DNA of 64,000 bases from Limnohabitans sp. Rim8 (GTDB taxonomy: Bacteria; Pseudomonadota; Gammaproteobacteria; Burkholderiales; Burkholderiaceae_C), in NCBI GenBank assembly GCA_945897465.1, contig CAMDFK010000022.1:1-64000 (forward strand), in the 5' to 3' direction. Made by a program: the position numbers and the translations under genes. Position 1 is the stretch's first letter. Each line of letters begins with the position of its first letter. Of this stretch, positions 33,362-64,000 are shown piece after piece. Below the pieces are notes generated by a model. The model saw nothing but the letters and a program-made list of their open reading frames with translations. It did not search any database and was not told the origin of the DNA.

Positions 33362-33379
33362 TTGTCATCTTTTTGACAC
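33362..33379 (+). promoter_or_regulatory. Candidate Pho box, HD-oxygenase gene
   Basis: TTGTCATCTTTTTGACAC matches the E. coli consensus CTGTCATAWAWCTGTCAY at 13 of 18 positions, 22 bases before the start codon. The -10 is poor (CAAAGT), so activation by PhoB from here implies a very short leader. Confidence 0.55.
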
Positions 33380-33401
33380 GCGCTGAGTCCAAAGTCACAC
33401 C

Positions 33402-33977
33402 ATGCAAAAAATGCTCAACTCCATCTTGGCGCTTTACCAGCAAGGCGGTGACTTGGTCTATGCAGGCGAGCCGGTCACCCAGCTGATGCACGCTTGGCAG
33501 TGCGGAAGGCTGGCTGAAAAATCAGGTGCCTCTGTGGCTTTGCAGCTGGCCAGTTGGTTGCACGATGTGGGTCATTTGTGGGTGAATTTGGAAGGCACCC
33601 CAACGCTTCGTGGACAAAACGATGCGCACGAAAAAATCGGTGCTGAGGTCCTGTTGCCAGTGTTTGGACCAGCCGTCTCTGAGCCTGTGCGTTTGCATGT
33701 GCAAGCCAAGCGCTATTTGGTCAGCACTCGTGAAAGCTATGCCCGCAAGCTCTCCCCTGACTCGGTGCGGAGTCTGCACTTGCAGGGCGGCCCCATGGCC
33801 CAGCAGGAATGCGCAGCATTTGAAGCAGAGCCTTATTTTGCAGATGCTGTGAAACTGCGCGTTTGGGATGATTTGGGCAAAAAGTCAGCTTGGTTTGATG
33901 ACTCACGGCATGACGCGCTGGACCACTTGACGCAGTTGATGTATCTGGTGGCGCGAGAGAAAGTCATTCAAATTTAA
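33402..33977 (+). CDS. HD-domain oxygenase, PhnZ-like
   Basis: A 191-residue HD-superfamily protein with the features of mixed-valent di-iron oxygenases that cleave hydroxylated phosphonates (PhnZ: 2-amino-1-hydroxyethylphosphonate to glycine and phosphate). Visible are Y20 and E23 in YAGEPVTQLMHAWQ, H29, the HD pair in WLHDVGHLW, further His in AHEKIGAEVL and RLHVQAKRYL, and Asp in RVWDDLGK. Tyr and Glu before the first His distinguish this group from HD phosphohydrolases. The usual partner dioxygenase PhnY is absent from the window. It is the first gene of a phosphate cluster, with a Pho box upstream. Confidence 0.78.
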   Translation: MQKMLNSILALYQQGGDLVYAGEPVTQLMHAWQCGRLAEKSGASVALQLASWLHDVGHLWVNLEGTPTLRGQNDAHEKIGAEVLLPVFGPAVSEPVRLHVQAKRYLVSTRESYARKLSPDSVRSLHLQGGPMAQQECAAFEAEPYFADAVKLRVWDDLGKKSAWFDDSRHDALDHLTQLMYLVAREKVIQI

Positions 33978-33983
33978 CAAAAA

Positions 33984-34001
33984 AGTCATGGTGTTGACAT
34001 T
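33984..34001 (+). promoter_or_regulatory. Weak Pho box, OlsB-like gene
   Basis: AAGTCATGGTGTTGACAT has the two half-sites GTCAT and TGACAT at Pho-box spacing but matches only 10 of 18 consensus positions. It lies 45 bases before the start codon. It is supported mainly by the company of the other sites. Confidence 0.35.
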
Positions 34002-34046
34002 CGATGGGTGGACCATTCGGTACATGAAGAATCAGGAGATGAAGTC

Positions 34047-34892
34047 ATGAAAGAGCTACCGAACCCCACCCTTCCGCTGTCCCCTGTTCAGCTGCCCAGG
34101 GGGTCACTTCATCCGGGGTCCGCTCTCACCGGTTTGGATTTTTTGCCGCGGCGTGTGCAAAGCACCATTGAGGTCAGCTGGGCGCAGCATCAAGACGAAG
34201 TTCGGGAAGCGCAGCAACTGAGGCACCAAGTGTTTGCCACCGAGTTGGGGGCACGTTTGCCTAAAACGGTGCCTGGCCACGACATCGATTTGTTTGACGA
34301 TTACTGCGAACACCTTCTGGTGCGTGACAGTGCCTCTGGTCAAGTCATTGGCACCTACCGGGTTCTCACCCCTGCGCAGGCCAAACGGGCGGGCAGCACC
34401 TACAGTGACACCGAATTTGACCTCACACGTTTGCGTGATTTGCGCGGCCGCATGGTGGAGTTGGGCCGCAGCTGCGTGCACGCAGACCATCGCCATGGCG
34501 GTGTCATCATGGCTTTGTGGGGTGCTTTGTTCGAATTCATGGACCGCAACCGCTTGGACACCATGATTGGCTGCGCCAGCATTCCCATGCTGCACAACGG
34601 TCTGGTGACGGGTGATGTGGCCGCCAGCATTTGGCACCAGCTGCGCCAAACCCATCTGGCCGATATCCAGTTCCATGTGCGTCCTCGTTTGCCTTTGCCG
34701 GTGGAAGAATTGGACTCTTCATTACCCATTGAGCCACCTGCGCTCATCAAAGGTTATTTGCGTCTGGGTGCCAAGGTTTTGGGGGCGCCTGCTTGGGATC
34801 CGGATTTCAATACCGCCGATCTGCCCATGATGATGCGCACAGCCGACTTACCACAGCGATACCGCAAGCACTTCTCCATGGGGGCATCATGA
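34047..34892 (+). CDS. olsB: OlsB-like ornithine N-acyltransferase (GNAT)
   Basis: It probably transfers a 3-hydroxyacyl chain from ACP to ornithine, giving lyso-ornithine lipid, the first step of the phosphorus-free ornithine lipids. The 281 residues carry the family motifs VELGRSCVHADHRHGG, MIGCASIPML and, at the C-terminus, PPALIKGYLRLGAKV and DPDFNTADLPMM, RYRKHF. Proteins of this group are often labelled hemolysin. ATG 34047 has AGGAG 8-9 bases upstream. Its stop overlaps the next gene (ATGA), a PlcP-like phospholipase candidate, which supports a role in lipid exchange under phosphate shortage. OlsA, which adds the second chain, is not seen here. Confidence 0.8.
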   Translation: MKELPNPTLPLSPVQLPRGSLHPGSALTGLDFLPRRVQSTIEVSWAQHQDEVREAQQLRHQVFATELGARLPKTVPGHDIDLFDDYCEHLLVRDSASGQVIGTYRVLTPAQAKRAGSTYSDTEFDLTRLRDLRGRMVELGRSCVHADHRHGGVIMALWGALFEFMDRNRLDTMIGCASIPMLHNGLVTGDVAASIWHQLRQTHLADIQFHVRPRLPLPVEELDSSLPIEPPALIKGYLRLGAKVLGAPAWDPDFNTADLPMMMRTADLPQRYRKHFSMGAS

Positions 34893-35818
34893 AGTCAGTC
34901 ATCCATCCTTCTCCTGCAAGCGCGTTCTTTGAATCCTCGTTTGCCGGGTCCCATAACCGTTTGCACCCTGCCTTGCCTGACTTACCCCGTCAGCAGACTC
35001 AAGGCCCTGAGGAGCCAGATGATGACCATTCGCCCGCAGATCGCCCCAGACTGCGGGCTGTTTTCATTTCGGACCTGCACATTGGCACGCCGGGCTTTCA
35101 GGCCGAAGCCCTGCTTGATTTCTTGAAGCATCACCCCAGCGATGTGTTGTATTTGGTCGGTGACATCGTGGATGGGTGGCAATTGCGCAGGCGATGGTTC
35201 TGGCCGCAGAGCCACAACGATGTGGTGCAGAAGTTGTTACGCCGGGCACGTAAAGGCTGTCGGGTCATTTATGTGCCCGGCAATCACGACGAGTTCGCAC
35301 GTCATTTTGTGGGCCATGCGTTTGGGGGTGTCGAGGTGCTGCACGACACGGTCCACACCACAGCCCAAGGCCTCAAGTTGTGGGTGGTGCATGGTGACCA
35401 TTTTGATGGCGTGATTCAATATGCCAAGTGGTTGGCTTATGTCGGCGATTGGCTGTATGAGCTGACTTTGCGGATGAACCGGCACCTCAACAGCTACAGG
35501 GCTCGGCTGGGTTTGGGTTATTGGTCTTTATCAGCGTACCTCAAACTCAAAGTCAAAAAAGCGGTCAACTTCATCAGTGACTTTGAGGTGGCTGTGGCGC
35601 AAGAGGCCAAGCGCCGAGGCTTTGATGGGGTGGTGTGCGGTCACATTCACCATGCCGAAATTCGTGATGTGAACGGTACCTTGTACTGCAACGATGGTGA
35701 TTGGGTCGAGAGCCGAACCGCGTTGGTCGAGCACGCTGATGGTCGTTTGGAAATCATCCACTGGGGTGCTCAGGCGGTGGTCATCAATGCCCTGCCTGCT
35801 CAAGCGGTCACCGCATGA
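34889..35818 (+). CDS. Calcineurin-like metallophosphoesterase, PlcP-like
   Basis: A 309-residue phosphoesterase. Metal motifs are SDLHIGTPG, VGDIVDGWQL, PGNHDEF, VVHGDHFD and GHIHHAEI. The blocks FWPQSHNDVVQKLLRRARKG and GLGYWSLSAYLKLKVKKAVN are typical of the group that includes Sinorhizobium PlcP, the phospholipase C that breaks phosphatidylglycerol and phosphatidylethanolamine during phosphate starvation. Automatic labels usually say UDP-2,3-diacylglucosamine diphosphatase (LpxH2-like). The overlap with the OlsB-like gene makes the PlcP reading more likely. The first 50 residues are poorly conserved and disordered. Confidence 0.8.
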   Translation: MKSVIHPSPASAFFESSFAGSHNRLHPALPDLPRQQTQGPEEPDDDHSPADRPRLRAVFISDLHIGTPGFQAEALLDFLKHHPSDVLYLVGDIVDGWQLRRRWFWPQSHNDVVQKLLRRARKGCRVIYVPGNHDEFARHFVGHAFGGVEVLHDTVHTTAQGLKLWVVHGDHFDGVIQYAKWLAYVGDWLYELTLRMNRHLNSYRARLGLGYWSLSAYLKLKVKKAVNFISDFEVAVAQEAKRRGFDGVVCGHIHHAEIRDVNGTLYCNDGDWVESRTALVEHADGRLEIIHWGAQAVVINALPAQAVTA

Positions 35819-35889
35819 ATGAAAGCTGACTCGTTTTGGGGTGTCGTGGTTTCCAGGTTAAGACAAAATCACCCCGAGCATTCACGAAA

Positions 35890-35923
35890 TTGTCATCGAA
35901 CTGTCGCGTAACTTACCTAAAAT
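35890..35923 (+). promoter_or_regulatory. Pho box and -10 of ppk1
   Basis: TTGTCATCGAACTGTCGC (35890-35907) matches the consensus at 14 of 18 positions. TAAAAT (35918-35923), 10 bases on, is a good -10, the spacing expected for PhoB-activated promoters. The ppk start is at 35950. Confidence 0.75.
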
Positions 35924-35949
35924 CATTGTAAAGAAACCACAGATGTGCA

Positions 35950-38034
35950 ATGACCACCACACTTTCACAAAACAAAACGGCAGGGTCCTCTTCTGAGTTA
36001 TTGGACCGTGACCTGAGTATTTTGGCATTCAATGAGCGGGTGCTCGATTGGGCGCACCGACCCGAAGTCCCCGTTCTCGAGCGCTTGCGCTATCTGTGCA
36101 TCGTGTCGTCCAACTTGGATGAGTTCTTTGAAGTACGGGCTGAGCCGCATGTGATGGGCAGCTTGCAGGAGATCAAGTCCGGTCAATACACGCCTGACAG
36201 TCTGTCGGCCATCGCTGACAAAACCAACGCCATGGTGGCGCGACAATACGCGCTGTACAACGACGATTTACTGCCCACATTGCAGCGCCAAGGCTACCGG
36301 TTGTTGTCGCACGGCGAGCGCAATGCTGAGCAGCGCCGATGGGTGCGCAGTTTTTTCCAACGAGAGGTCCAACCCTTGTTGGTGCCTGTGGGCTTGGACC
36401 CGGCGCACCCTTTCCCCAAAGTGGCCAACAAATCGCTCAACTTCATCGTGCAGTTGTCGGGCAAAGATGCTTTTGGCCGAGCCAATGAAATCGCCATCGT
36501 CAAGGTGCCGCGTGTGTTGCCTCGGGTGATTGCCTTGCCGGATCGGGTTTGTGAAGGCACCAAGGCTTTTGTGCTTTTGTCCAGCGTGATCCGAGCGCAC
36601 TTGGCCGAGTTGTTTCCCGGTCGGGAAGTGGGTCAGTTTTCTCAGTTTCGGGTCACGCGCCATTCGGATCTGGCGGTCGACGAAGACGAGATCGCCAATT
36701 TGCGCATGGCCCTGCGCCAAGGTCTGCAGCACCGCCACTATGGCCAGGCGGTTCGATTGGAGGTGTCTTCCAATTGCGCCCCCCAATTGGCGGAGTTTTT
36801 ACGCAAAGAGTTTCGGCTGCCCGAAGCTTCCGTTTTCCGGGTCAATGGTCCGGTGAACCTGGTGCGCTTGATGCAACTCATTGACCTGGTGCCTGCGCCG
36901 GAGTTGCTCTTTCCGCCCTTCAAAGCCAGCTTCCCGGTGCAACTGCCACAACACGGCTCGGTGTTCAACCGGCTCAAAGAGGGCGACGTGGTGATCCACC
37001 AGCCCTTTGAAACCTTTGATGGCGTATTGGCTTTTTTGCGTGAGGCCGTGATGGACCCGAATGTGCTGGCCATCAAACAAACCATTTACCGCGCGGGCAG
37101 TGACACCACCATGATGGACTTGTTGCGCGAAGCGGTGCGCCGTGGCAAAGAGGTCACGGCTGTGGTTGAGCTCAAGGCCCGTTTTGACGAAGAGGCCAAC
37201 ATCAACTGGGCCGAGCAACTCGAATCGATCGGTGCGCAAGTGGTTTACGGCATTGTGGGCCTGAAAACACACGCCAAAATGCTGCTGGTCACCCGCCGTG
37301 AAGGCCGTGTATTGCGTCGATATGGCCATCTGTCCACGGGCAACTACAACCGCCGCACTGCTGCTTTGTACACCGACATCAGCTACCTCACGGCCGATCC
37401 TGAAATCACCAGTGATATGGACCAGTTGTTTGGGCATTTGGCCAGTCAAAGCCGCTTGCCCAAAATGAAACGTTTGTTGGTCGCACCCTTCCATTTGCAT
37501 GCCCACATGATGACCCTCATTGAGGCTGTGGGCAGCGCCGCCGCGCGAGGTGCTCCCGGTCGCATCGTCATCAAGATGAATGCCTTGACCGACATCCCGT
37601 TGGTGCAAGCCTTGTTGGCGGCAGGGCAAAAAGGCGCCAAGATTGATTTGATCGTTCGTGGGGCTTGCGTACTGCCTGCCGCTGTGGCCGGCGTGAGCGA
37701 CAACATCCGGGTGCGCTCGGTGATCGGGCGCTTTTTGGAACACTCGCGGGTGTTCTATTTTTGCGCTGACCAAGTTGAGTCCTTGTATTTGTCGAGTGCT
37801 GACTGGATGAGCCGCAACATGACGCGCCGCATCGAACTGGCTTGGCCCGTGACCGACCCACTGCTGCGCCAGCGCATCATTGACGAATGCCTGATTGCTT
37901 ACCTCCACGATGGGCGTGATGCTTGGGATCTGGCGCCGGACGGCCAGTACCACCGCGTGGGCCTGACGGCACCCGGGCCTGGTGCTCAGCAAGCGCTGAT
38001 GCAGCGCTACGACGCAACCCCAGGAAGAGGGTAA
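35950..38034 (+). CDS. ppk1: Polyphosphate kinase 1
   Basis: It makes inorganic polyphosphate reversibly from ATP. The 694 residues have the PPK1 domain order: N domain (ELLDRDLSILAFNERVLDWA), the conserved SSNLDEFFEVR, a middle domain (PVGLDPAHPFPKVANKSLNF), and two C domains with VIHQPFETFDGVLAFLREAV, the phosphohistidine motif GLKTHAKMLLVTRREG and STGNYNRRTAALYTD, then SSADWMSRNMTRRIELAWPV. ATG 35950 follows the Pho promoter. sixA follows within 5 bases, and ppx lies two genes on. Confidence 0.97.
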   Translation: MTTTLSQNKTAGSSSELLDRDLSILAFNERVLDWAHRPEVPVLERLRYLCIVSSNLDEFFEVRAEPHVMGSLQEIKSGQYTPDSLSAIADKTNAMVARQYALYNDDLLPTLQRQGYRLLSHGERNAEQRRWVRSFFQREVQPLLVPVGLDPAHPFPKVANKSLNFIVQLSGKDAFGRANEIAIVKVPRVLPRVIALPDRVCEGTKAFVLLSSVIRAHLAELFPGREVGQFSQFRVTRHSDLAVDEDEIANLRMALRQGLQHRHYGQAVRLEVSSNCAPQLAEFLRKEFRLPEASVFRVNGPVNLVRLMQLIDLVPAPELLFPPFKASFPVQLPQHGSVFNRLKEGDVVIHQPFETFDGVLAFLREAVMDPNVLAIKQTIYRAGSDTTMMDLLREAVRRGKEVTAVVELKARFDEEANINWAEQLESIGAQVVYGIVGLKTHAKMLLVTRREGRVLRRYGHLSTGNYNRRTAALYTDISYLTADPEITSDMDQLFGHLASQSRLPKMKRLLVAPFHLHAHMMTLIEAVGSAAARGAPGRIVIKMNALTDIPLVQALLAAGQKGAKIDLIVRGACVLPAAVAGVSDNIRVRSVIGRFLEHSRVFYFCADQVESLYLSSADWMSRNMTRRIELAWPVTDPLLRQRIIDECLIAYLHDGRDAWDLAPDGQYHRVGLTAPGPGAQQALMQRYDATPGRG

Positions 38035-38039
38035 GTGCC

Positions 38040-38501: not shown

Positions 38502-38522
38502 GCTGCGCGAACGACAGCACAT

Positions 38523-39050: not shown

Positions 39051-39073
39051 GGAAAATCAACTTTCAAAAAATT

Positions 39074-39141: not shown

Positions 39142-40647
39142 TCAGTTCACGGTCACTTGAAAGATCCAATCGGTTTTTTGCCAAGCATTCTTCTCTTCAC
39201 GCAGCAAATGGGCCGATTGCGGCCAGAGTTCCGCCCAATCGCTTTCCATGTTCAGGGTGGCCACACGCCTTTCAGCATCGCATTGGACATGCAGGCCAGA
39301 CAAATCAGGTTCGCGCCGGGCATGGCACAAGATGACCGCCAAACGCAGCGCCATGAGCTGTTGCACAAACCGGGTGTTTTGCAGTTCGGCATCGAGCTTG
39401 CGCAGCTTGCCACGGTGGCCAAGCACCAGTTGGCTCAAGCGGTGTAACTCATCCAGGGTGAAGCCGGGCAGATCGGTGTTGTCGAGGATGTAGGCACCAT
39501 GTTTGTGGTAATCGCTGTGCGAGATGCGCATGCCAGACTCATGCAGTTGGCAGGCCCAATGCAGTTTTTGCAAATGGCGTTGTCGCTCGCTTTGGGACAC
39601 GTCAGATTTTCCCGATGCGATCATGGCTTGCAGCAAGCCTTGGGCTGTTCGGGAAACACGCTCAGCTTGTTGCTCATCCGTGCCAAAGCGCTGCGCCAAC
39701 CAACTGACCATGGACGAGCGCACATCCTGAGGTGACTCGCGGTCGATCAGGTCGAACAGCGCACCGTGCCTTAAGGCCCCCTGGGCGGCATGCATCTCAT
39801 CGATTTGCAGCAGATCAAACAAAGCTTGCAACACGGCCAAGCCGCCCCCGATCACCGGTTTACGTTCTTCTTTGACGCCGTCTAGCCGAAGATTGTCGGG
39901 TTTTTGTGCCTTGAGCAAGCGCTCCTTGAGCCAATTCAAGCCATCCCGCGTGACACGCCCTTCGGGCCATCCGGCTTGGGTCAAAACGTCGGACACCGCG
40001 CCCACCGTGCCCGATGAGCCATAACAGGTGTCCCAGTGTTGGCGATTGAACAGAATGTGGGCTTCGTCGAGCACGGCCAGGGCTCCAATCTCGGCGGCCT
40101 TGAAGGCTTGAGGCGTCCATAAGCCATCAGGGAAATATTTCATGGACCAGCCCACGCTGCCCACGCGGTAGGACTCGAGTGTGTTGGCGGTTTCGTGTTG
40201 TCCCAAAATCATTTCGGTTGACCGCCCGCCGATGTCCACCACCAAACGGCGCTCGTCTGACTGTGGCAGCAGGTGCGAGACCCCCAGATAAATCAAGCGG
40301 GCCTCTTCGCGCCCGGCAATCACCTCGATCGGAAAGCCCAGAATCTCTTTGGCTTTGGCCAAAAACACCTCGCGGTTGCGGGCTTCGCGCAGGGTTTGGG
40401 TGGCCACGGCCCGCACTTGATGGGGCTCGAAACCGGCTATCCGTTCGCCAAATCGGGCCAAGCACTCCCAGCCGCGGGCCATGGCGTCTTCACTCAGGTT
40501 GCGCTCACTGTCTAAGCCATTGCCTTGACGCACGGTCTCTTTGATGTACTCCACGCGCCGCAACTGGCCCGCATCCATTTGTCCGATTTCAAGGCGAAAA
40601 CTGTTAGAGCCCAGATCGACGGCGGCGTAGAGGGAATGGGTCTGCAT
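39142..40647 (-). CDS. ppx: Exopolyphosphatase (Ppx/GppA family)
   Basis: It releases phosphate from the ends of polyphosphate, or hydrolyses pppGpp. The 501 residues have the actin-like ATPase-fold domains with YAAVDLGSNSFRLEIGQM, VRAVATQTLREARN, LVVDIGGRSTEMILG and YGSSGTVGAV, and a C-terminal HD-like helical domain (LHESGMRISHSDYHKHGAY). The size fits full-length Ppx, not the short form. ATG 40647. A Pho box with a -10 lies directly upstream (40683-40716), so it should be induced together with ppk1. Confidence 0.94.
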   Translation of the reverse strand: MQTHSLYAAVDLGSNSFRLEIGQMDAGQLRRVEYIKETVRQGNGLDSERNLSEDAMARGWECLARFGERIAGFEPHQVRAVATQTLREARNREVFLAKAKEILGFPIEVIAGREEARLIYLGVSHLLPQSDERRLVVDIGGRSTEMILGQHETANTLESYRVGSVGWSMKYFPDGLWTPQAFKAAEIGALAVLDEAHILFNRQHWDTCYGSSGTVGAVSDVLTQAGWPEGRVTRDGLNWLKERLLKAQKPDNLRLDGVKEERKPVIGGGLAVLQALFDLLQIDEMHAAQGALRHGALFDLIDRESPQDVRSSMVSWLAQRFGTDEQQAERVSRTAQGLLQAMIASGKSDVSQSERQRHLQKLHWACQLHESGMRISHSDYHKHGAYILDNTDLPGFTLDELHRLSQLVLGHRGKLRKLDAELQNTRFVQQLMALRLAVILCHARREPDLSGLHVQCDAERRVATLNMESDWAELWPQSAHLLREEKNAWQKTDWIFQVTVN

Positions 40648-40682: not shown

Positions 40683-40716
40683 ATTATGTGACCGGATTGT
40701 GAAATTCAAATGACAT
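40683..40716 (-). promoter_or_regulatory. Pho box and -10 of ppx
   Basis: On the minus strand ATGTCATTTGAATTTCAC (40716-40699) matches 13 of 18 consensus positions. CATAAT (40688-40683), 10 bases on, matches TATAAT at 5 of 6. The ppx start is at 40647. Confidence 0.7.
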
Positions 40717-40757: not shown

Positions 40758-41786
<1,029 letters not shown>

Positions 41787-41844
41787 GTCGTGTGGTCACT
41801 TCAAGCGTTGTGGTTATAGGCTGGCAGATTTTTTTAAGACGGGT

Positions 41845-42333
41845 TCAAGAACGGCCGATCTGATCGAGCTCTTTCTTCAAGGCCAGCCGATCGAGCTTGT
41901 CGATGGGCAGGCTCAGCAAAATCGAGATGCGCCGGTGCAGCTTCATGAAAGCATCCCAAAAAGCTTGGGCTTTTTCGGCGTCGGTGGTGCCGATGTGGCC
42001 AGGGTCTTCCACACCCCAGTGCGCGGTCATGGGCTGACCTGGCCAAACGGGGCAGACCTCGCCCGCCGCGTTGTCGCACACGGTGATCACGAAGTCCATG
42101 GTGGGCGCATCGGGGGCTGCAAATTCGGACCAGCTTTTACTGCGCAAGCCTTCGGTGCTCAGTTGATTGCGCTCAAGGCAGTTCAAAGCATGCGCATTGA
42201 CATGACCGGCCGGACGGCTGCCAGCGCTGTAGGCCATAAAGCGATTCGGACCCAAGTGGTTCATGATGGCCTCGGCCATGATGCTGCGCGAGGAATTGCC
42301 GGTGCAAATGAAGAGGATGTTGTGTGTGGCCAC
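41845..42333 (-). CDS. arsC: Arsenate reductase, thioredoxin-coupled type
   Basis: It reduces arsenate to arsenite, which ACR3 exports. The 162 residues belong to the low-molecular-weight phosphatase-like family: the P-loop FICTGNSSRS (Cys10), ITVCDNAAGEVCPVWPG with two further Cys for the disulfide relay, and PGHIGTTDAEKAQAFW. GTG 42333 is chosen because GGAGAAAC lies just upstream and the P-loop then sits at the usual place; the frame is open further upstream. It lies between arsR and acr3. Confidence 0.93.
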   Translation of the reverse strand: MATHNILFICTGNSSRSIMAEAIMNHLGPNRFMAYSAGSRPAGHVNAHALNCLERNQLSTEGLRSKSWSEFAAPDAPTMDFVITVCDNAAGEVCPVWPGQPMTAHWGVEDPGHIGTTDAEKAQAFWDAFMKLHRRISILLSLPIDKLDRLALKKELDQIGRS

Positions 42334-42361
42334 AGGTGTTTCTCCGTTCAAAAAATGGGAT

Positions 42362-42721
42362 TCAGCATCGGCTGGGTTCGCAAGCCAGATTGAGCGCGTC
42401 GCCGCAGGGCACACCCTGGCAGCAGTGCGCTGTCAAAAAGTCCATCAGGCTTTGCATGGCGCCAAGGTCGGCGCGGTAGCGCAAAAAGCGGCCCTCGCGC
42501 TGCACACTGACCAAGGCGGCGTGGTGCAGTTCTTTGAGGTGAAACGACAGCGTGTTGGCCGGAATGTCGAGCGCTGCAGACAGCTGCCCAGGCTGAATGC
42601 CCTCGGGCCCCGCGCCCACGATGGCGCGAAACACCTTCAGGCGCGAGCTTTGCGCCAAAGCCGCCAAGGCCTTGACGGCAACCCCTTCGTCCATGACATT
42701 GAAAAGTGAGACGGGGTTCAT
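42362..42721 (-). CDS. arsR: ArsR-family arsenic-responsive repressor
   Basis: A 119-residue winged-helix repressor: LKVFRAIVGAGPEGIQPGQL, then ALDIPANTLSFHLKELHHAA (recognition helix) and the wing REGRFLRYRAD. The C-terminus holds a Cys cluster (AHCCQGVPCGDALNLACEPS) suited to bind arsenite. ATG 42721 overlaps the arsJ stop (ATGA). It is in the middle of the operon it presumably controls; the operator candidate is before the GAPDH gene at 45058-45072. Confidence 0.92.
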   Translation of the reverse strand: MNPVSLFNVMDEGVAVKALAALAQSSRLKVFRAIVGAGPEGIQPGQLSAALDIPANTLSFHLKELHHAALVSVQREGRFLRYRADLGAMQSLMDFLTAHCCQGVPCGDALNLACEPSRC

Positions 42722-43998
42722 GGTGTGGCCTTTTCTGCAGGGGTGTGGGTGAGCAAACCCATGGGCAAACGCAGCGTGGCCAGCCAGCACAAGAGCAGCA
42801 TCAGCGCCGAGCCCAAGAGTGCGTACATCAACCCACCCCATTGGTAGAGCAGGCCCGACAGCAGCGTGCCCATGAAGCGGCCCAGCGCATTGGCCGCGTA
42901 ATAAAAGCCCACGTCTTCGGCTGCTTTTTCAGAGCCCGCATAGGCCAGCACCAAATAACTGTGAACCGAGGAATTGATGGCAAAAGCAAAGCCGAACAAA
43001 CTCAGGCCCCCGACCACCCACCACTGCAGCTGCGGCGCTTGCCAATACATGGCCGCGGCAATGCCCAGCGGAATGAGCGTGAGCACCGCCGACCACCACC
43101 GCGCGGCAGGCACTTCTCGGCTCAGGCCGTCGGCGCTGCGGCGCACGATCTGTGGGGCCAGCGCTTGCACCAGGCCATAACCAATGGTCCAAGCCGCCAA
43201 AAAGCCACCCACCATGGTGAAAGTCCAGCCCACCGAGTAAAGGAACACGGGTACGCCCACCACAAACCACACGTCCCGCGCCCCAAACAAGGCCACGCGG
43301 GCTGCGGCCAGCGCGTTGATGCCCGGGTTTTTGGCAAATAGCTCTTTGGCCGTACCGGAAGGCTTGCTCTTGCCCATCATGGGCGGCAAGCTCGTCACCA
43401 CGCCAATGAGCACCAGCGCCAAGAGGCCCGACATGGCCCATAAAGAACCCTGAAACCCCAGCGTCTCCAGCAGCAAACCACCCAGAAAAAAGCCAAAGCC
43501 TTTCATGGCGTTTTTGCTGCCCGTGAACCAGGCCACCCATTTGAAGAGTTGCCCGTTGCCCGTGTCTTTGGCTTGCGCCTGTGTGATCTTGATGGCCGAC
43601 TTGCTGGCGGTCTTGGTCAAGTCTTTGGCCACACCACACACGCCTTGCGCCAGCACCACCCAAGCCACCGACATGGCCGCTGTCCATTCAGGCTGCAGGG
43701 CCGAGAGCAAGCCAAAGCCGATGATTTGTGTGGACAGGCCCACAGTGAGCATGCGGGCAATGCCAAAGCGTGTGGCCAGCCAGCCGCCGATCAGGTTGGC
43801 CAGCACGCCCGCGCCCTCATAGAGCAAGAACAAGAAGGCCAGCGTGAAGGGCGAGTAACCGAGCTTGTAAAAGTGCAGCAGCACCAACATGCGCAAAGCG
43901 CCGTCGGTCAGGGTGAAGCCCCAATAGGCGGCGGTCACGATGCCGTAGTTCCGCTCTGCCGCGGTGACGATGCCGTTGTGGCGTTCAGCGGCATTCAT
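42718..43998 (-). CDS. arsJ: Organoarsenical efflux MFS transporter ArsJ
   Basis: A 426-residue major-facilitator protein with about twelve membrane segments. With the neighbouring GAPDH it exports 1-arseno-3-phosphoglycerate, which then breaks down to arsenate outside. The stretches AAYWGFTLTDGALRMLVLLH, FLLYEGAGVLANLIGGWLA and KDLTKTASKSAIK are ArsJ signatures. The N-terminus has an extra 10-residue duplication (AERHNGIVTA then AERNYGIVTA), coded by a 30-bp tandem repeat at 43931-43990. The start is one base after the GAPDH stop. Confidence 0.93.
   Translation of the reverse strand: MNAAERHNGIVTAAERNYGIVTAAYWGFTLTDGALRMLVLLHFYKLGYSPFTLAFLFLLYEGAGVLANLIGGWLATRFGIARMLTVGLSTQIIGFGLLSALQPEWTAAMSVAWVVLAQGVCGVAKDLTKTASKSAIKITQAQAKDTGNGQLFKWVAWFTGSKNAMKGFGFFLGGLLLETLGFQGSLWAMSGLLALVLIGVVTSLPPMMGKSKPSGTAKELFAKNPGINALAAARVALFGARDVWFVVGVPVFLYSVGWTFTMVGGFLAAWTIGYGLVQALAPQIVRRSADGLSREVPAARWWSAVLTLIPLGIAAAMYWQAPQLQWWVVGGLSLFGFAFAINSSVHSYLVLAYAGSEKAAEDVGFYYAANALGRFMGTLLSGLLYQWGGLMYALLGSALMLLLCWLATLRLPMGLLTHTPAEKATP
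43931..43990 (-). repeat. 30-bp tandem duplication at the arsJ start
   Basis: GCGGTCACGATGCCGT at 43931 recurs as GCGGTGACGATGCCGT at 43961 with the same 30-base period. It adds ten residues to the cytoplasmic N-terminus of ArsJ and has already diverged, so it is not very recent. Confidence 0.7.
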
Positions 43999-43999
43999 C

Positions 44000-45043
44000 T
44001 CAGATGCCGACGTCGTTCATGTGGCAAGCCAAATCGACCATGCGGCAGGCATAGCCCATTTCGTTGTCGTACCAAGCGTAGACCTTGAGCAATGTGCCGT
44101 CGGTCACCAATGTAGACAACGCGTCCACAATGCTGCTGCGCGTGTCGCGAGCGTAGTCGGCACTCACCAGGGGGCGCTCTTCGTACCCCAGGATGCCCGC
44201 CAAAGGGCCTTTTGCAGCTGCTGCAAACAAGGCATTGACTTCATCGGCGCTGGTCTCGCGCTTCATCTCGAACACACAGTCGGTCAGCGACGCATTGAGC
44301 ACCGGGGCACGCACGGCGTGGCCGTTGAGCTTGCCCTTGAGTTCAGGGTAAATCAAGGCAATCGCCGTGGCGCTGCCCGTGGTGGTGGGGGCCAGGCTCA
44401 TCATGGCGCTGCGGGCGCGACGCAGGTCTTTGTGTGGGGCATCGACCACCAAGTTGGTGTTGGTGGGGTCGTGGATGGTGGTGATCTGGCCGTGCCGGAT
44501 GCCAATGGCCTCATGCACCACTTTGACCACCGGAGCCAGACAGTTGGTGGTGCACGATGCGGCGGTGACGATGCGGTCTTTGGCCGGGTTGTACAGGGTG
44601 TGGTTGATGCCCACCACGATGTTCAGCACATCGCCCACCTTGACGGGTGCGGCCACGATCACGCGCTTGGCGCCCCGGTCCAGGTGGCCTTGAATCGTCT
44701 CGGGCGTTAAAAACTTGCCCGTGCATTCGAGCACCAAGTCCACACCCATGTCGCCCCAAGGGATGTCGGCCGGATTGGCGTGTGAGGAAAAGCCTAGGGT
44801 GCGCTCGCCGATGCGAATATGGCTGTCGCCTTCCGCCTCAATGCGCTCACGCCACTTGCCCTGCACGCTGTCAAACGCCAGCAAATGGGCGGTGGCCGCC
44901 GCGCCGCCCTTGAGTTCGTTCAGGTGCACCACCTCCAATCGGTTGCCTGCACGGGGGTCGTCTGATTGGCGCTCGGCAGCGCCCATGGCCGCACGCAGGG
45001 CCAAACGGCCGATGCGGCCCATTCCGTTGATTCCGACTTTCAT
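44000..45043 (-). CDS. ArsJ-associated glyceraldehyde-3-phosphate dehydrogenase
   Basis: A 347-residue GAPDH that can use arsenate in place of phosphate, making the substrate of ArsJ. The NAD-binding start is [18 protein letters not shown], the catalytic Cys is in [14 protein letters not shown], and the phosphate pocket and C-terminus ([18 protein letters not shown]) are standard. Location at the head of an arsenic operon directly before arsJ marks it as the ArsJ partner and not the glycolytic enzyme. ATG 45043 has GAGG upstream. Confidence 0.93.
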
Positions 45044-45057
45044 AGGGAAACCTCTCA

Positions 45058-45072
45058 TTCGATAGTTCGAAC
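45058..45072. promoter_or_regulatory. Candidate ArsR operator
   Basis: TTCGATAGTTCGAAC contains TTCGA-TAGT-TCGAA and the perfect 8-bp palindrome GTTCGAAC, 15 bases before the GAPDH start. This is a fitting site for ArsR control of the whole operon. Confidence 0.55.
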
Positions 45073-45289
45073 ATTATGGAAGTTATTTGTGGCATTTTGA
45101 TGACGATCAGTGGGTGGATTGGGCCAAGCGAAACTGTCAGAAATTGCGTTCTTAAACCTATCGATTTGAGCTGTGAAAGATGGGTCGTACATGGTCAAAA
45201 CACAGTGATGAAAATTTCAAATTAATGACTCGATGATGAATATTTCACTGCTGAAAACCCATGAATTTTCCTTTGAGAATGCGGGTGAT
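45073..45289. other. Intergenic stretch between the arsenic operon and phoX, no gene seen
   Basis: The gap between the GAPDH start (45043) and phoX (45357) is 313 bases. Its ends hold the ArsR operator and a Pho box. The middle is AT-richer than its surroundings and shows no convincing reading frame, hairpin or repeat. Confidence 0.6.
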
Positions 45290-45321
45290 ATGTCACGATT
45301 TTTTCACGGACATTGTCTAAC
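45290..45321 (+). promoter_or_regulatory. Pho box and -10 of the first phoX
   Basis: ATGTCACGATTTTTTCAC (45290-45307) matches 12 of 18 consensus positions. TCTAAC (45316-45321) is a possible -10. AGGAG lies before the start at 45357. Confidence 0.6.
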
Positions 45322-45356
45322 CTGTATTGGCTTTTTAACCCACAGGAGTTTTTAAC

Positions 45357-47428: not shown

Positions 47429-47489
47429 AATGGCAAACTCGGTTTGCCATTGAGTTTGAACCACCCTGAGGGTGGCCCTATTTATTTTT
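47429..47489 (+). terminator. Double hairpin terminator after the first phoX
   Basis: AATGGCAAAC-TCG-GTTTGCCATT (47429-47451) is a perfect 10-bp stem with a 3-base loop. CCACCC-TGA-GGGTGG (47461-47475) follows, with a T-rich tail ending TTTATTTTT. Together they look like an efficient rho-independent terminator separating phoX from the next genes. Confidence 0.8.
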
Positions 47490-47515
47490 ACCGATCAAAT
47501 GGTGGTGGATGCCGC

Positions 47516-48622: not shown

Positions 48623-48626
48623 CACC

Positions 48627-50213: not shown

Positions 50214-50250
50214 ACAGACCCAAAATTTTGAAGTGGCTGTGATTATTTGG

Positions 50251-50285
50251 GTGACATCAAATTTTCATTTCTAAGTGGCCAAAAT
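50251..50285 (+). promoter_or_regulatory. Pho box and -10 of the second phoX
   Basis: GTGACATCAAATTTTCAT (50251-50268) matches 13 of 18 consensus positions. CAAAAT (50280-50285), 11 bases on, fits a -10 at 4 of 6. The leader would be short. Confidence 0.6.
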
Positions 50286-50306
50286 GATGTTTTTGAAATG
50301 CAATTT

Positions 50307-52532: not shown

Positions 52533-52550
52533 AGCCCTGGGGCCAAGTGT

Positions 52551-53072: not shown

Positions 53073-53132
53073 GGGCAACTCATGCTGCATGCGCAGGACG
53101 TTTTCGGATTTGTTGGGAACTTGGGCCACGGT

Positions 53133-54065: not shown

Positions 54066-54141
54066 GGTTCATTCCAAAAGGCTTGAAATGACCAATATAA
54101 GCCAACACAAATGCTTACGCAGCAAAACTGCGCAGAAATAA

Positions 54142-55204: not shown

Positions 55205-55222
55205 CGGTCATATCGCTGTCAT
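55205..55222 (+). promoter_or_regulatory. Pho box of the lipid glycosyltransferase gene
   Basis: CGGTCATATCGCTGTCAT matches the consensus at 15 of 18 positions, the best of the set. It is only 24 bases before the chosen start codon (55246), so the message would be nearly leaderless or the start lies further in. Confidence 0.7.
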
Positions 55223-55245
55223 TCGCATCGGCCAAGCTAAACACC

Positions 55246-56406
55246 ATGGCACACGATGTTCAGCTGATTTATTTCAACGCCGGTGGCGGTCATCGGTCTG
55301 CAGCTTTGGCGCTCCAAGAAGTTATGGCCCAAGCGCATCCTGATTGGACCGTAACATTGGTGAATCTGTTTGAGGTCATTGATTCAGACCGTTTCTACCA
55401 AAAATTAACGGGTTTTGCGCCGGAAGACCTCTACAACATGCGTCTTAAACGGGGCTGGACTCGGGGCTTGGCCGCTGAGCTCAAGCTGTTTCAGGCCATG
55501 ATTCGCCTGACTTTGCCCAAGCTCAAAAAGAAGATGCGTATTTTTTGGCGCAACACCCAGCCTGATCTGGTGGTCTCGCTGGTGCCCAATTTCAACAAGG
55601 TCATGTACGAGGCCTTGCGAGACGAATTGCCGGGTGTGCCCTATGTCACGGTGTTGACCGATATGGCCGACTACCCCCCTAACTTCTGGATCGAGCCGAA
55701 CCAAGGTCAGTACATCATCTGCGGCACAGAGTTTGCGGCCTCACAGGCTGTGGCATCGGGTTACGACGCCGAATCCATCATCCGAACATCCGGGATGATT
55801 TTGCGTCCCAGTTTTTACAGCAAACGCTGCTTGAACAAGGCTGAGCGATTCGCTGAAATTGGACTTGACCCGCAGCGCCCCACGGGTTTGGTGCTGTTTG
55901 GCGGTCACGGCTCCAACGACATGCTCAAGATCGCCAAGGCTTTGCCAGACCAGCAACTGATTTTTGTAGCAGGTCACAACACCGCATTGGCACGGAAAAT
56001 GGCCGTGCAATCGGCCTCACCACGACACCTTGTCTTGGGATTCACCAAGGACATCGACCATTACATGCAATTGAGTGATTACTTTGTCGGCAAGCCTGGC
56101 CCAGGCAGTTTGAGTGAGGCTGTACACATGGGTTTGCCAGTGATCACATTTCGCAATGCATCCACCATGCCTCAAGAGCGGTACAACACAACGTGGGTTG
56201 AAGAGAACCAGTTGGGTAAGGTCATTGCCTCGTTGGCTGATTTGCCACAGGCGGTCGACGAAATTTTGTCCCATCTTCAAGATTACAAAAGCAAGGTCCA
56301 AAAACTGAACAACCAAGCCGTGTTTGAAATAGTGGATGCTTTAGAGGGCCTTTTTTTGAGCTCACACGGTTTGTCCAAGCCATCGGGAAATACCCATTTG
56401 GTTTGA
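55246..56406 (+). CDS. Diacylglycerol glycosyltransferase-like protein (MGD/Agt type, GT28)
   Basis: It probably transfers a sugar from a nucleotide sugar to diacylglycerol, giving glycolipids. The 386 residues have the MGD/UgtP fold: LIYFNAGGGHRSAALALQEV at the N-terminus (acceptor domain), TVLTDMADYPPNFWIEP, LVLFGGHGSNDMLKIAKALP, then LGFTKDIDHYMQLSDYFVGK and PGPGSLSEAVHMGLPVITF (donor site). This group includes Agt, induced with PlcP during phosphate starvation in alphaproteobacteria. ATG 55246 is chosen because the fold begins there; an upstream frame runs through the Pho box. Confidence 0.85.
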   Translation: MAHDVQLIYFNAGGGHRSAALALQEVMAQAHPDWTVTLVNLFEVIDSDRFYQKLTGFAPEDLYNMRLKRGWTRGLAAELKLFQAMIRLTLPKLKKKMRIFWRNTQPDLVVSLVPNFNKVMYEALRDELPGVPYVTVLTDMADYPPNFWIEPNQGQYIICGTEFAASQAVASGYDAESIIRTSGMILRPSFYSKRCLNKAERFAEIGLDPQRPTGLVLFGGHGSNDMLKIAKALPDQQLIFVAGHNTALARKMAVQSASPRHLVLGFTKDIDHYMQLSDYFVGKPGPGSLSEAVHMGLPVITFRNASTMPQERYNTTWVEENQLGKVIASLADLPQAVDEILSHLQDYKSKVQKLNNQAVFEIVDALEGLFLSSHGLSKPSGNTHLV

Positions 56407-56432: not shown

Positions 56433-56467
56433 CTGTCATCAAGTCGTCACGTTTTTCCGCCAACAAT
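56433..56467 (+). promoter_or_regulatory. Pho box and -10 of the IMPase-family gene
   Basis: CTGTCATCAAGTCGTCAC (56433-56450) matches the consensus at 14 of 18 positions, including the entire first half-site. AACAAT (56462-56467), 11 bases on, fits a -10 at 4 of 6. Confidence 0.75.
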
Positions 56468-56512
56468 CTTTAATCCCAAGGACATTGGCACTTGGATGAA
56501 CAAAGGTTGTGC

Positions 56513-57286: not shown

Positions 57287-57294
57287 TTTTTTTG

Positions 57295-57313
57295 GGGCTA
57301 ACGCCCGTTTTTT
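57295..57313 (+). terminator. Weak hairpin with U-run before the ABC importer
   Basis: GGGC-TAAC-GCCC is followed by G and six T's, directly after the IMPase-family stop. A 4-bp stem would allow strong read-through, so the importer may belong to the same message. Confidence 0.4.
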
Positions 57314-57329
57314 AACCGAAGGAACGACC

Positions 57330-58370: not shown

Positions 58371-58391
58371 TCTGTTGGATAACTCACGCAC

Positions 58392-61687: not shown

Positions 61688-61712
61688 CCGTGATCAAGAC
61701 TTGCAGCAGCTT

Positions 61713-62384
61713 TTAAGGACCAAACAAGTCCAAAACAGGCCAGCCCTGGCGAAGGGCACGTTCGCGCAAATCGGGCGAAGGATTGGTGGCCACGGGGTGA
61801 TCAACCAACGCCAATAAAGGCAGGTCATTGGCCGAGTCAGAGTAAAAGTGGAGCACCACATCAGAGCGCTGCAAGCCTAATGTGGCCAGCCATTGGTTCA
61901 ATCGGGTAACTTTGCCCTCTCTGAAAGAGGGTGTGCCTTCGATTTGGCCTGTGAACCAGCCCTTTTCATCTACAGACAAGTCAATCGCCAACAGGTCAAC
62001 AATGCCCAGTGCATCGACCACAGCGCGGCTCACAAACACATTGGTGGCGGTGATGACCAAGAGGTGGTGTCCTTGCTGGCGGTGCATATTGATCAGTTGC
62101 AGCACGCTTGAGTCTAGGCGGGGGCGCACGCATTGCTCAACAAACTCCGCCAAAGCCTGTTGTGCCAAAACTGGGCCGGCTTGGACAGTGGCCGCGATGG
62201 AAAACCTTTGGTATTCATGAATGTCCAATGTGCCTGCGTCGTACTGGGCGAAAAATGCGGTCTGTCGGCTTAAAAAATCATGTTCTGCCAAGCCGCGTGC
62301 ATACAAGAATTGGCCCCAGGCCTCATCGCAGTCAAATGGGATGAGGGTCTTATCAAGGTCAAAAATGGCGATGGTTTTTTTCAT
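61713..62384 (-). CDS. HAD-IB family phosphatase (SerB-like)
   Basis: A 223-residue haloacid-dehalogenase-superfamily phosphatase of subfamily IB: nucleophile motif AIFDLDKTLIPFDCDEAW near the N-terminus, LLVITATNVFV as motif II, GKVTRLNQWL with Lys and YSDSANDLPLLALVDHPVAT as motif III/IV. Similar proteins act on phosphoserine, histidinol phosphate or phosphorylated lipids; the substrate is open. It follows the PhnE genes on the minus strand after a 132-base gap bounded by an 11-bp inverted repeat, whose one arm touches its start codon. Confidence 0.87.
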   Translation of the reverse strand: MKKTIAIFDLDKTLIPFDCDEAWGQFLYARGLAEHDFLSRQTAFFAQYDAGTLDIHEYQRFSIAATVQAGPVLAQQALAEFVEQCVRPRLDSSVLQLINMHRQQGHHLLVITATNVFVSRAVVDALGIVDLLAIDLSVDEKGWFTGQIEGTPSFREGKVTRLNQWLATLGLQRSDVVLHFYSDSANDLPLLALVDHPVATNPSPDLRERALRQGWPVLDLFGP

Positions 62385-62495
62385 GGCTCAAGCATTCAAA
62401 CAGTAAACACCGATCAGTACCAAGCCGTTAATGATGGAATGCCACTGACTTTATTGGAATGGCAAAGAACTGAATGCGTGTATTTGCTTGAGCCA
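62384..62495. repeat. 112-bp segment with perfect 11-bp terminal inverted repeats
   Basis: TGGCTCAAGCA (62384-62394) and TGCTTGAGCCA (62485-62495) are exact complements and enclose 90 bases. The left arm begins at the first base of the HAD start codon. It may be a long-range RNA stem that hides the HAD start, or the remains of a MITE-like element. The interior shows no gene. Confidence 0.55.
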
Positions 62496-62516
62496 GTTTT
62501 CCATGGGGTTGACGCG

Positions 62517-63350
62517 TCAATGCTGAGGTTGACCGATCACCTTGAATCGCAGTTTTGAGCACAACCAGTCAATGGCCGATACAGTCACCAGAATCATCAA
62601 AATGACAAACGACACTTGTTGAAACTCCAGAGTGCGTATTTGTTCTGACAAGATCAAGCCAATGCCACCCGCCCCCACAATGCCAATGATGGTGGCGCTG
62701 CGGGTGTTGGATTCGAAGTAATACAACACCTGGCTCAAAAACACTGGCAAGACTTGCGGCACGATGCCAAAGCGAATTTGCTGAATGCGACTGCCACCAG
62801 TCGAAGCAATGCCTTCTACAGGTTTGCGGTCGGCGGCTTCAATGGCTTCAGAAAATAATTTGCCAAAAGAGCCCAGATCAGAGCAAATGATGGCGAGCAC
62901 ACCGGCAAAGGGTCCCAAACCCACCACATTGATCCAGATCAGAGCCCAAATGAGGGTGTCTACACCGCGCAAAGTGTCAAAAGTGCGACGTGATAAAAAA
63001 TGGACTAAGCGGTTTATGCTGGTGTTCCGGGCCGCCAAAGAGGCCAAAGGGAATGCCAACAGTGCTGCAATCAAGGTGCCTAAAAAGGCAATCGCCACCG
63101 TTTCAACCATGGCGTGCAGGTAACGCAGCAAAGTCGGACCCCATCCAGGGTCAGGGGGAAACATCAGTCGGGTAACGTCCAATAGTTTGCTTAAACCAGT
63201 GAAAATCCGCATGGCACTGAAATCCAGGCGGTAAAAACTAAAAATCAATAAACCCAACAGAAGGGTGATCACCGTGATGGTGATCACTCGATGACGTGTC
63301 ACCGTGCGGAAATGCTGGGGGTATTTGGCGATCTGCGCGTCTGTGGTCAT
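62517..63350 (-). CDS. phnE: Phosphonate ABC transporter permease PhnE
   Basis: A 277-residue inner-membrane permease of the phosphonate (or phosphite) ABC transporter, with about six hydrophobic segments: HRVITITVITLLLGLLIFSF, then TLLRYLHAMVETVAIAFLGT, FPLASLAARNTSIN and the ATPase-contact loop KPVEGIASTGGSRIQQIRFG, ending with the GAGGIGLILSEQIR segment. PhnE motifs are clear. It is the second of two adjacent PhnE genes (ATGA overlap, 63347-63350). PhnC and PhnD would be expected upstream, outside the window. Confidence 0.92.
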   Translation of the reverse strand: MTTDAQIAKYPQHFRTVTRHRVITITVITLLLGLLIFSFYRLDFSAMRIFTGLSKLLDVTRLMFPPDPGWGPTLLRYLHAMVETVAIAFLGTLIAALLAFPLASLAARNTSINRLVHFLSRRTFDTLRGVDTLIWALIWINVVGLGPFAGVLAIICSDLGSFGKLFSEAIEAADRKPVEGIASTGGSRIQQIRFGIVPQVLPVFLSQVLYYFESNTRSATIIGIVGAGGIGLILSEQIRTLEFQQVSFVILMILVTVSAIDWLCSKLRFKVIGQPQH

Positions 63351-64000
63351 GCTTTGCTTTCGGGGCCAGAGCCGATCAAAAGGTGGCGCAGTTTTTCCGT
63401 CAAGGTGTCAATCACCACCACGGTGATGATGATCAAAATCAACAGAGCACTCACGTCAGAGTAATAAAACTTTCGGATGGCAGAGATCAAGGTCTCGCCA
63501 ATGCCGCCAGCACCCACAAAACCCAAAACGGCGGCTCCCCTGACGTTGATCTCGAACCGCAGCAGTGCGTAGCTTGCAAAGTTGGATAAAACTTGGGGGA
63601 GAACCGCGAAACGAATTTTTTGCAACCAGTTGCCCCCAGTGGCGACAACACCATGGATGGGTTTCATGTCGATGTTTTCCACCACTTCAGCGAATAACTT
63701 ACCCAGTGCGCCCATGGTGTGGATGGCGATTGCTAAAACTCCGGCCATTGGACCCAAACCAAAGGCGACAACAAAAATCAAAGCGAAGACGAGTTCAGGA
63801 ACAGTTCTGCAAAATTCCATGAATCGACGAGATACAAAAACCACCGCTGAAGATCGGGTGATGTTTTTGCTGGCCATGAAACAAAAAAGCACGGCGCCTA
63901 AAGCACCTAAGAGCGTGCCCACATAAGCCATCATCAAGGTCTCGCCCAGCAGCTTCAGCCACTTGTCAAGACCCCAAAACCATTCAAAAGGGTCGCGAAT
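63347..64000 (-). CDS. phnE: Phosphonate ABC transporter permease PhnE, first copy (partial)
   Basis: The reading frame is open to the window end, so the N-terminus is missing; the visible part has about 217 residues. It includes WFWGLDKWLKLLGETLMMAY, FMASKNITRSSAVVFVSRRF, GVVATGGNWLQKIRFAVLP and VGAGGIGETLISAIRKFYYS, all of PhnE type. It overlaps the next phnE by ATGA, suggesting that the two form a heterodimeric permease. Confidence 0.9.
   Translation of the reverse strand: MRDPFEWFWGLDKWLKLLGETLMMAYVGTLLGALGAVLFCFMASKNITRSSAVVFVSRRFMEFCRTVPELVFALIFVVAFGLGPMAGVLAIAIHTMGALGKLFAEVVENIDMKPIHGVVATGGNWLQKIRFAVLPQVLSNFASYALLRFEINVRGAAVLGFVGAGGIGETLISAIRKFYYSDVSALLILIIITVVVIDTLTEKLRHLLIGSGPESKA

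Follow-up and report, generated by a model that had tools for sequence, protein, structure and literature searches.

The DNA considered here, hereafter the window, consists of bases 1-64000 of contig C22 (64,204 bases), in a draft genome of 3.02 Mb and 48 contigs that presumably belongs to a freshwater member of the Burkholderiales, Limnohabitans in the broad sense. Its part from 33362 to 64000, which we name the island, is likely to be a phosphate-starvation island, where the arsenic export operon gapdh-arsJ-arsR-arsC-acr3 would be a member of the Pho regulon endowed with a second input, that of ArsR. Beyond this genome, we lean slightly towards the idea that across Burkholderiales the composite promoter of gapdh-arsJ would compute a "phosphate-starved AND arsenic-present" state, and that the PhoX phosphatase would recover the organic phosphate exported in the process. 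Regulation is predicted from sequence throughout. What carries it is a set of Pho boxes, their enrichment and conservation, the spacing of the -10 elements that follow them and, at the arsenic operon, a dyad linked to arsR. An initial annotation had seen a dispersed Pho regulon in the island and considered that the arsenic operon broke it up: the Pho regulon part of this view is sound and fairly ordinary, and the operon taken for an interruption is its most interesting part.

Pho boxes of the island and the PhoB system of the genome

The Pho box of Escherichia coli is made of 7-bp direct repeats separated by a 4-bp spacer; it replaces the -35 element, and its targets comprise pst, phosphatases and phosphonate genes. 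The island resembles the E. coli PhoB-PhoR regulon in repeat geometry, in replacement of the -35 and in the type of targets, and differs from it in that the targets are clustered in one place, with an arsenate-export operon among them. In most of the genus, pstS promoters display TTGACA-N5-TTGTCAC followed by a -10, and we chose them for scoring so that the island itself was not used in training: an 11-box matrix included the genome's own pstS box and one box of another genus, and a 9-box matrix was limited to same-genus relatives, with own and other-genus boxes excluded. As a background, we took 320 kb of the same genome, spread over 16 other contigs.

Scored with the 18-letter consensus of the initial annotation (at least 13 of 18 matches), the 64-kb window contains 21 sites, 16 of them within 33362-64000, with a density of 5.2 per 10 kb in the island versus 0.91 per 10 kb in the background (29 sites in 320 kb). 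Counts with the 11-box matrix at 13 bits or more are 6 for the island, 2 for the first half of the window and 6 for the 320-kb background. With the 9-box matrix at 11 bits or more, applied to intergenic DNA as delimited by rough gene calls, the island has 7 matches in 3,098 bases (two of which, at 33351 and 33362, overlap) versus a mean of 0.94 in shuffles of the same DNA, none of 200 reaching 7; the first half of the window has 0 matches in 3,801 intergenic bases, and the background has 1 in 41,595, below its shuffle mean of 5.2. Compared with both shuffles and genome background, the dispersed boxes announced by the initial annotation are real. In the first half of the window, a 14.5-bit box at 397-414 lies outside the intergenic matches of the 9-box scan. 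Finally, the pattern CTGTCATNNNNCTGTCAY, with at most 2 mismatches, is found at 21 sites in the whole genome (7 for a control pattern); 3 of them are on this 64-kb contig, all within the island.

The genome has its own PhoB (333.1 bits for a cut-off of 296.2) and a PhoU that scores over its family cut-off; pstSCAB was assigned from gene order and homology among relatives, without a family scan. Its own pstS promoter carries the box TTGACACAGTAATGTCAC, with TACATT 10 nucleotides (nt) further on, of the same type as the boxes of the island. Contig C26, where pst-phoU-phoB is located, is also enriched with the 9-box matrix (7 matches versus 1.35 in shuffles, 0 of 200 reaching that number). More Pho-box-like clusters occur on this contig (L194-L196), at about 11640-11693, 26132-26255 and 28061-28089.

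The -10 signature NANNNT follows the 8 boxes of the window at 10 nt in six cases and at 11 nt in two; it is found too at offset 13 in 4 of the 8, the window alone not being sharp in this respect. Among relatives, 29 of 43 promoters of the HD-domain gene, ppk1 and ppx have NANNNT at a distance of exactly 10 nt from the box, the next offsets reaching 7. Relatives of the genus largely share the arrangement of these genes, HD-olsB-phosphoesterase-ppk1 being followed by ppx and the ars genes on the opposite strand and then by phoX, and genes internal to operons never reach 11 bits in them. This holds for the genes of ArsJ, ArsC, ArsR, ACR3 and the calcineurin-like phosphoesterase (34793..35818, forward strand, PF12850/PF00149), which by context we take to be PlcP-like. 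In 18 same-genus genomes searched for this phosphoesterase and for phoU, the phosphoesterase match is missing in 3; both genes share a contig, 9-39 kb apart, in 9, and are on separate draft contigs in 6, this genome included. Because of this linkage, the island probably extends to pst-phoB.

Taken together, the genome's own PhoB, the pstS type of the boxes, their enrichment, their conserved footprints and the -10 spacing make the Pho regulon well supported. It might be argued that the repeats are bound by another regulator of the OmpR/PhoB type, as the genome encodes several PhoB-like regulators (there are 18 receiver-domain matches) and related regulators can recognise similar repeats. We find this very improbable: a single regulator passes the PhoB cut-off, the matrix derives from pstS promoters, which are classical PhoB targets, and most of the targets are phosphate genes.

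With PhoB as the activator, the scheme that we infer is as follows. Under low phosphate, phosphorylated PhoB would bind the direct-repeat boxes that replace the -35 (box, 10 nt, -10) and recruit RNA polymerase to phoX-1, phoX-2, ppk1, ppx, the phosphonate and lipid-exchange genes and the IMPase/ABC operon. The Pho box of gapdh-arsJ would make arsenate export PhoB-dependent as well, while ArsR, sitting on an operator at or just after the -10 (or the start), would repress gapdh-arsJ until it has bound As(III). The net logic would be export of arsenate in response to phosphate scarcity AND the presence of arsenic, and the rationale could be that high-affinity phosphate uptake carries a risk of importing arsenate.

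A proposed composite promoter for gapdh-arsJ

The arsenic operon (40758..45058, reverse strand) is delineated by family profiles. It begins with the gene of an ArsJ-associated GAPDH (44000 to about 45043; NF033735, 544 bits for a cut-off of 450), adjoined by arsJ (42718-43998; NF033734, 520.4 bits for a cut-off of 400), so that both genes, adjacent and over their family cut-offs, form a GAPDH-ArsJ export operon. On the same strand come arsR (42362-42841), encoding an ArsR-type helix-turn-helix protein over the cut-off of PF12840 and under that of NF033788 (50.5 versus 55 bits), an arsC of the low-molecular-weight type (about 41845-42414; LMWPc) and an ACR3-type acr3 (40758-41786; SBF-type transporter). 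Ahead of the operon lies the Pho box TCGTCATCAAAATGCCAC (45089..45106, reverse strand), followed 10 nt on by the -10 CATAAT (45073-45078); the list of the initial annotation does not contain it. In the same genus, 9 of 10 relatives carry a box scoring 11 bits or more before gapdh, at -53 to -59. Because its own promoter carries this conserved Pho box, the operon is not an interruption of the regulon, contrary to what had been proposed.

For a wider view, genomes were collected in which ArsJ scores over cut-off (17 of 150 in the family) or an ArsJ-associated GAPDH is present (34 of 399 in the order, 30 loci being taken from these); both counts include the present genome. From 57 loci examined, 44 promoters of the close type (GAPDH at least 80% identical) were counted; duplicates (L301, L303, L316), the own copy, a locus where GAPDH runs off the end (L242) and 8 distant-type promoters were left aside. 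The 44, which are related sequences rather than independent events, include 11 own-genus loci, 15 other genera of the family and seven loci of a single genus (f13 g13). A box of at least 11 of the 14 half-site letters is present between -120 and -25 in 36 of the 44, while the reversed pattern is found in 6 and 300 column-permuted patterns give a mean of 0.36 and a maximum of 3; among the 8 distant-type promoters none has it. The NANNNT signature, which was not used in the box search, follows the box by exactly 10 nt in 35 of the 36 boxed promoters; none of the other offsets between 4 and 17 has it in more than 3. In 6 of 16 other genera, arsJ has phosphate genes (phoX, ppk1, ppx, olsB-like) at a distance of about 9 kb or less, a proportion counted without control stretches. 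The box reaches 11 letters in all six genera with such genes nearby, and in 6 of the 9 measurable genera without them.

A more mundane account would be that of an ordinary Pho regulon with an ars operon merely in its vicinity, the box before gapdh being due to chance and ArsR alone being in control. Several observations weigh in this direction or against PhoB control of gapdh-arsJ. The window's own ars box is weak: it has 10 of 14 half-site letters and scores 13.9 bits with the 11-box matrix and 9.7 with the 9-box one, which leaves it under the threshold of 11 and absent from the intergenic matches described above. Among the 44 promoters, 8 are without an 11-letter box, with 10 letters in L221, L304 and L308 and only 7-9 in L234, L235, L245, L317 and L320. 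Stand-alone arsR operons of the family (no arsJ or gapdh within 1500 bases) have no Pho box of 11 letters or more in any of 20 loci, and control by ArsR in Agrobacterium is described, in extracts of one paper, as insensitive to phosphate (PMC7965956). We nevertheless hold the chance account improbable, in view of the 9 of 10 same-genus relatives, of the 36 of 44 promoters with their -10 nearly always at 10 nt, and of the presence of the box in loci away from phosphate genes. A general rule for arsJ has to be discarded, however: in the wider class, where the best 30 loci of 79 genomes with ArsJ gave 27 usable ones, the box is present in 5 of 27 versus 2 of 27 for the reversed pattern, so that it is not a general arsJ feature, although in arsR-first loci of this class the promoter may fall beyond the 1500-base flank.

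The second component of the composite promoter is the dyad TTCNA-N6-TNGAA. With at most one mismatch and no further than 31 nt after the box, 34 of 37 promoters have it (the own copy counted along with the 36), versus a mean of 1.30 and a maximum of 5 in 300 shuffles. Its variants, TTCAA-N6-TTGAA, TTCGA-N6-TCGAA and TTCCA-N6-TGGAA, show that both arms co-vary between genera. When inverted repeats of any sequence are looked for after the box, 26 of 39 promoters have one (4.8 in shuffles, 8 in the upstream stretch), 20 of them of the TTC type. The dyad starts at offset 15 in 20 promoters, at 7 in three, the window included, and later in the rest, and it overlaps the -10 in 23 of 37. Stand-alone arsR genes have it too: in 8 of 20 loci, against 0.06 expected, a dyad with perfect arms lies upstream of the start, at a distance of 15-18 bases. 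As these genes are themselves without a Pho box, the dyad is probably the operator of ArsR and, conversely, the Pho box appears specific to the arsenate exporter. At L343, in another genus, an arsR-acr3 pair with a PhoX-like neighbour has the ArsR dyad and no Pho box of 11 letters or more. In the window the predicted operator TTCCATAATGTTCGAA (45066..45081, reverse strand) spans the -10, and a second dyad lies at 45058-45071 on the same strand; with arsR within the operon and a dyad at its promoter (one mismatch in the own copy), the promoter has the features expected of one controlled by ArsR. Some details are less favourable: the window's own dyad has one arm mismatched and sits at offset 7 instead of 15, and over the 37 promoters the dyad is further down than the -10 in 11 and absent in 3.

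How the two inputs combine is a matter where a graded or OR-like logic, with relief from ArsR being strong and PhoB merely boosting expression, has to be considered. It would be consistent with the variation of the operator offsets (7, 15, 18, 25, 26 and later), which could tune repression, and with the fact that 7 of 36 promoters have 4 of the 6 letters of a -35, while logic cannot be read from sequence. On average, however, the 36 promoters have no -35 at the usual spacing above shuffles (2.53 of 6 letters versus 2.33), which suggests that an activator is needed, and we see graded logic as rather unlikely, AND logic remaining our preference. An additional, speculative, point concerns cost: each arsenate exported as 1-arseno-3-phosphoglycerate would cost the cell one organic phosphate, and a secreted PhoX, encoded beside gapdh in Limnohabitans, would reclaim this phosphate, making export affordable at the very moment when cells are starving.

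Arsenic and phosphate control in other organisms

Statements about the papers cited below refer to extracts of them. One close parallel is found in Halomonas sp. HAL1, where PhoB controls the arsenite oxidase genes aioBA via a Pho box, in a way that depends on low phosphate (PMC4563254, where the direct repeats of the Pho box are also described). An arsenic gene has a Pho box in both cases, bound by PhoB in HAL1 and predicted from the DNA here; HAL1 differs in that arsenite oxidation is concerned, in another bacterial order, and in that no ArsR operator appears in the passages at hand. In Agrobacterium tumefaciens 5A, ArsR1 binds the pstS1-phoB1 region (PMC7965956, PMC7533571), and crosstalk of ArsR with Pho is also reported in PMC3834237. 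Arsenic and phosphate control meet there as they would here, except that ArsR acts on pst/pho, whereas both sites predicted in the present case are on the gapdh-arsJ promoter. A survey of Burkholderiales also notes that aio genes adjoin pst (PMC3954881).

ArsJ exports 1-arseno-3-phosphoglycerate, which breaks outside into arsenate and 3-phosphoglycerate (PMC5930303). The GAPDH-ArsJ systems of Pseudomonas aeruginosa and Halomonas GFAJ-1 involve the same two proteins, and the pst genes of GFAJ-1 are in the same island. PhoB is nowhere mentioned in PMC5930303, and the distant-type promoters of our own set are boxless. Some of these published data speak against the scheme proposed here. The Pst systems of GFAJ-1 are reported to be highly specific for phosphate, with good discrimination against arsenate, and their deletion left arsenic resistance unchanged (PMC5930303), which weakens the rationale based on import of arsenate; and the arsJ operon of Vibrio cholerae, with its promoter before arsR, is induced by arsenate in rich medium (PMC9601151). 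The cyanobacterium Nodularia spumigena is a mixed case: in three RNA-seq contrasts, log2 values were 1.57, 2.41 and 0.09 for the ArsJ-associated GAPDH and 0.29, 1.20 and -0.25 for ArsJ, while the authors of this phosphate-limitation study concluded that most arsenate-related genes had no clear response (PMC9846622). It is like the present system in that these transcripts are up in some contrasts and that arsR is beside sphX, and unlike it in that promoter anatomy is not given in the extracts and that the term "Pho box" is absent from the paper.

We found no paper linking arsJ with a Pho box in the open PMC library, and arsJ together with PhoB only in the Nodularia study. The parts of the composite arsJ promoter are thus known and their combination, as far as this library goes, appears to be a new variant. 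Arsenate resembles phosphate and can enter via phosphate transporters, so that phosphate starvation and the risk of arsenate may be linked. If the scheme is true, an exporter promoter with dual input would be a direct, testable link between them in freshwater and soil bacteria, with a bearing on arsenic cycling in lakes that are low in phosphate. It would also illustrate how an operon that seems out of place in a regulon island may in fact belong to the regulon.

Other promoters and genes of the island

Of the eight sites that the initial annotation had proposed, those of the HD, ppk1, ppx, phoX-1, phoX-2, glycosyltransferase and IMPase genes stand, and that of OlsB, which scores 7.9 bits and lies 30 bp downstream of the HD gene, falls as an independent box. 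The larger claim, that nearly all of these 30 kb are switched on together, goes too far, on account of redoxin-MBL-ParA (52551-54771), with a single box at 54088 (MBL, 11.9 bits), and of the HAD and permease genes (61713-64000, an operon running to the contig end), for which no convincing box was found. The site at 54088 was rejected, as it scores only 1.9 bits in L219, the sole comparable relative, and one at 62645 (12.5 bits) was discarded as lying inside a permease gene. In redoxin-MBL-ParA, 53133-54065 encodes a metallo-hydrolase akin to SoxH-type "quinoprotein relay" enzymes, with scores below cut-offs. The neighbours of phoX-1 and the ABC transporter belong to the regulon only if the upstream promoter is common to them.

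On the forward strand, the island opens with the box TTGTCATCTTTTTGACAC (33362..33379, 16.5 bits), exactly 10 nt before the -10 CAAAGT (33390-33395) of a gene for a PhnZ/TmpB-like HD-domain oxygenase (33402..33977). In all 8 relatives compared, the best box also stands at -40, with 11.8-16.6 bits. The protein matches the PhnZ structure 4mlm (E 4e-29) and is below the curated PhnZ/TmpB cut-off (TIGR03276, 201.3 versus 214.6 bits), hence PhnZ-like only. Similarly, the ornithine N-acyltransferase that follows (34008..34892, forward strand, PF13444) is OlsB-like only, with 156.4 bits versus a curated cut-off of 350 (NF052554), and its gene is probably co-transcribed with the HD gene. In relatives L230 and L232, where no HD gene was detected, a 12.1-bit box precedes OlsB, consistent with each operon having a single promoter; L037 is contrary to this pattern, having an HD gene and yet an OlsB box of 14.8 bits. 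The phosphoesterase gene comes next; its product was detected in 21 of 30 same-genus genomes, the own one included, and several align only from residue 83-86, its true start being probably near residue 83. Only 6-7 bases separate the -10 from the start codon for the HD gene (33390-33402) and the glycosyltransferase gene (55233-55246), both stretches ending in ACACCATG, which suggests leaderless mRNAs; for the HD gene, all 8 relatives have this short spacing.

Overlapping tandem boxes precede ppk1 (35879..35907, forward strand, 14.8 bits; main box 35890-35907, overlapping half at 35879), with the -10 TAAAAT at 35918-35923, and 13 of 15 same-genus relatives have a ppk1 box that reaches 11 bits. 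The gene (35950..38034, forward strand; PF02503, PF13089, PF13090, PF17941) encodes a polyphosphate kinase that is 92-93% identical to its two best genome-record matches. On the reverse strand, the exopolyphosphatase gene ppx (39142..40647; PF02541, PF21447) has the box ATGTCATTTGAATTTCAC (40699..40716, 13 of 18 consensus letters) and the -10 CATAAT (40683-40688). This site is weak by matrix, 8.4 bits at best, and its register was picked with the -10 in view; in relatives, the ppx box reaches 11 bits in 11 of 21, and 9 or more of the 14 half-site letters, a near-chance threshold, in 21 of 21, most with a -10 at 10 nt.

All remaining features are on the forward strand. The phoX-1 box (45290..45307, 16.4 bits) and -10 TAACCT (45318-45323) precede a PhoX alkaline phosphatase gene (45357..47420; PF05787, E 5.2e-170), and the sole close ortholog, L135 (89%), has a comparable box of 10.5 bits at -66. 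Between the two phoX genes, 47444-50213 contains an open reading frame (ORF) of 392 residues that matches no Pfam family, and a subtilase that has a P-domain; ORFs resembling the former occur near phoX in several relatives. The second gene, phoX-2 (listed ORF 50247..52532; PF05787, E 8.7e-120), has a box at 50251..50268 (17.8 bits) and a -10-like CAAAAT 11 nt further on (50280-50285), and its true start is downstream of the listed 50247. Of 11 orthologs at 85% identity or more, 10 have a box that scores 11 bits or higher; its position relative to the listed start is +1 to +4, like that of the window, in 8 of these, -12 in another and -80 in the last, and none of four more distant homologs (48-60% identity) reaches 11 bits.

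For the MGDG-synthase-like glycosyltransferase gene (55246..56406; PF06925, PF04101), presumably Agt-like by context, the box (55205..55222) has 15 of 18 consensus letters and only 6.9 bits, with a -10-like CAAGCT at 55233-55238. Its support comes from the consensus and from conservation, which extends into the flanks: in 5 of 6 distinct relatives an element reading CGGTCAY-N4-ATGTCAT, or close to it, occupies the same position (4.7-8.2 bits). Homology in relatives begins at residue 21-26 of the listed ORF. No orthologous promoter was present, among the loci searched, for the box of the IMPase-family gene (56433..56450, 15.9 bits), which is followed after 11 nt by the -10-like AACAAT (56462-56467). 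This box probably serves, besides the IMPase-family phosphatase (56492-57286; PF00459), the ABC importer behind it (57261-61687; PF00528, PF00005), which is related to 2-aminoethylphosphonate systems and is below the TIGR03261 cut-off (220 versus 392.75 bits). The first importer gene probably starts later than listed and, at 58392-60611, one permease of 739 residues has two BPD_transp_1 stretches, apparently a fused ABC permease.

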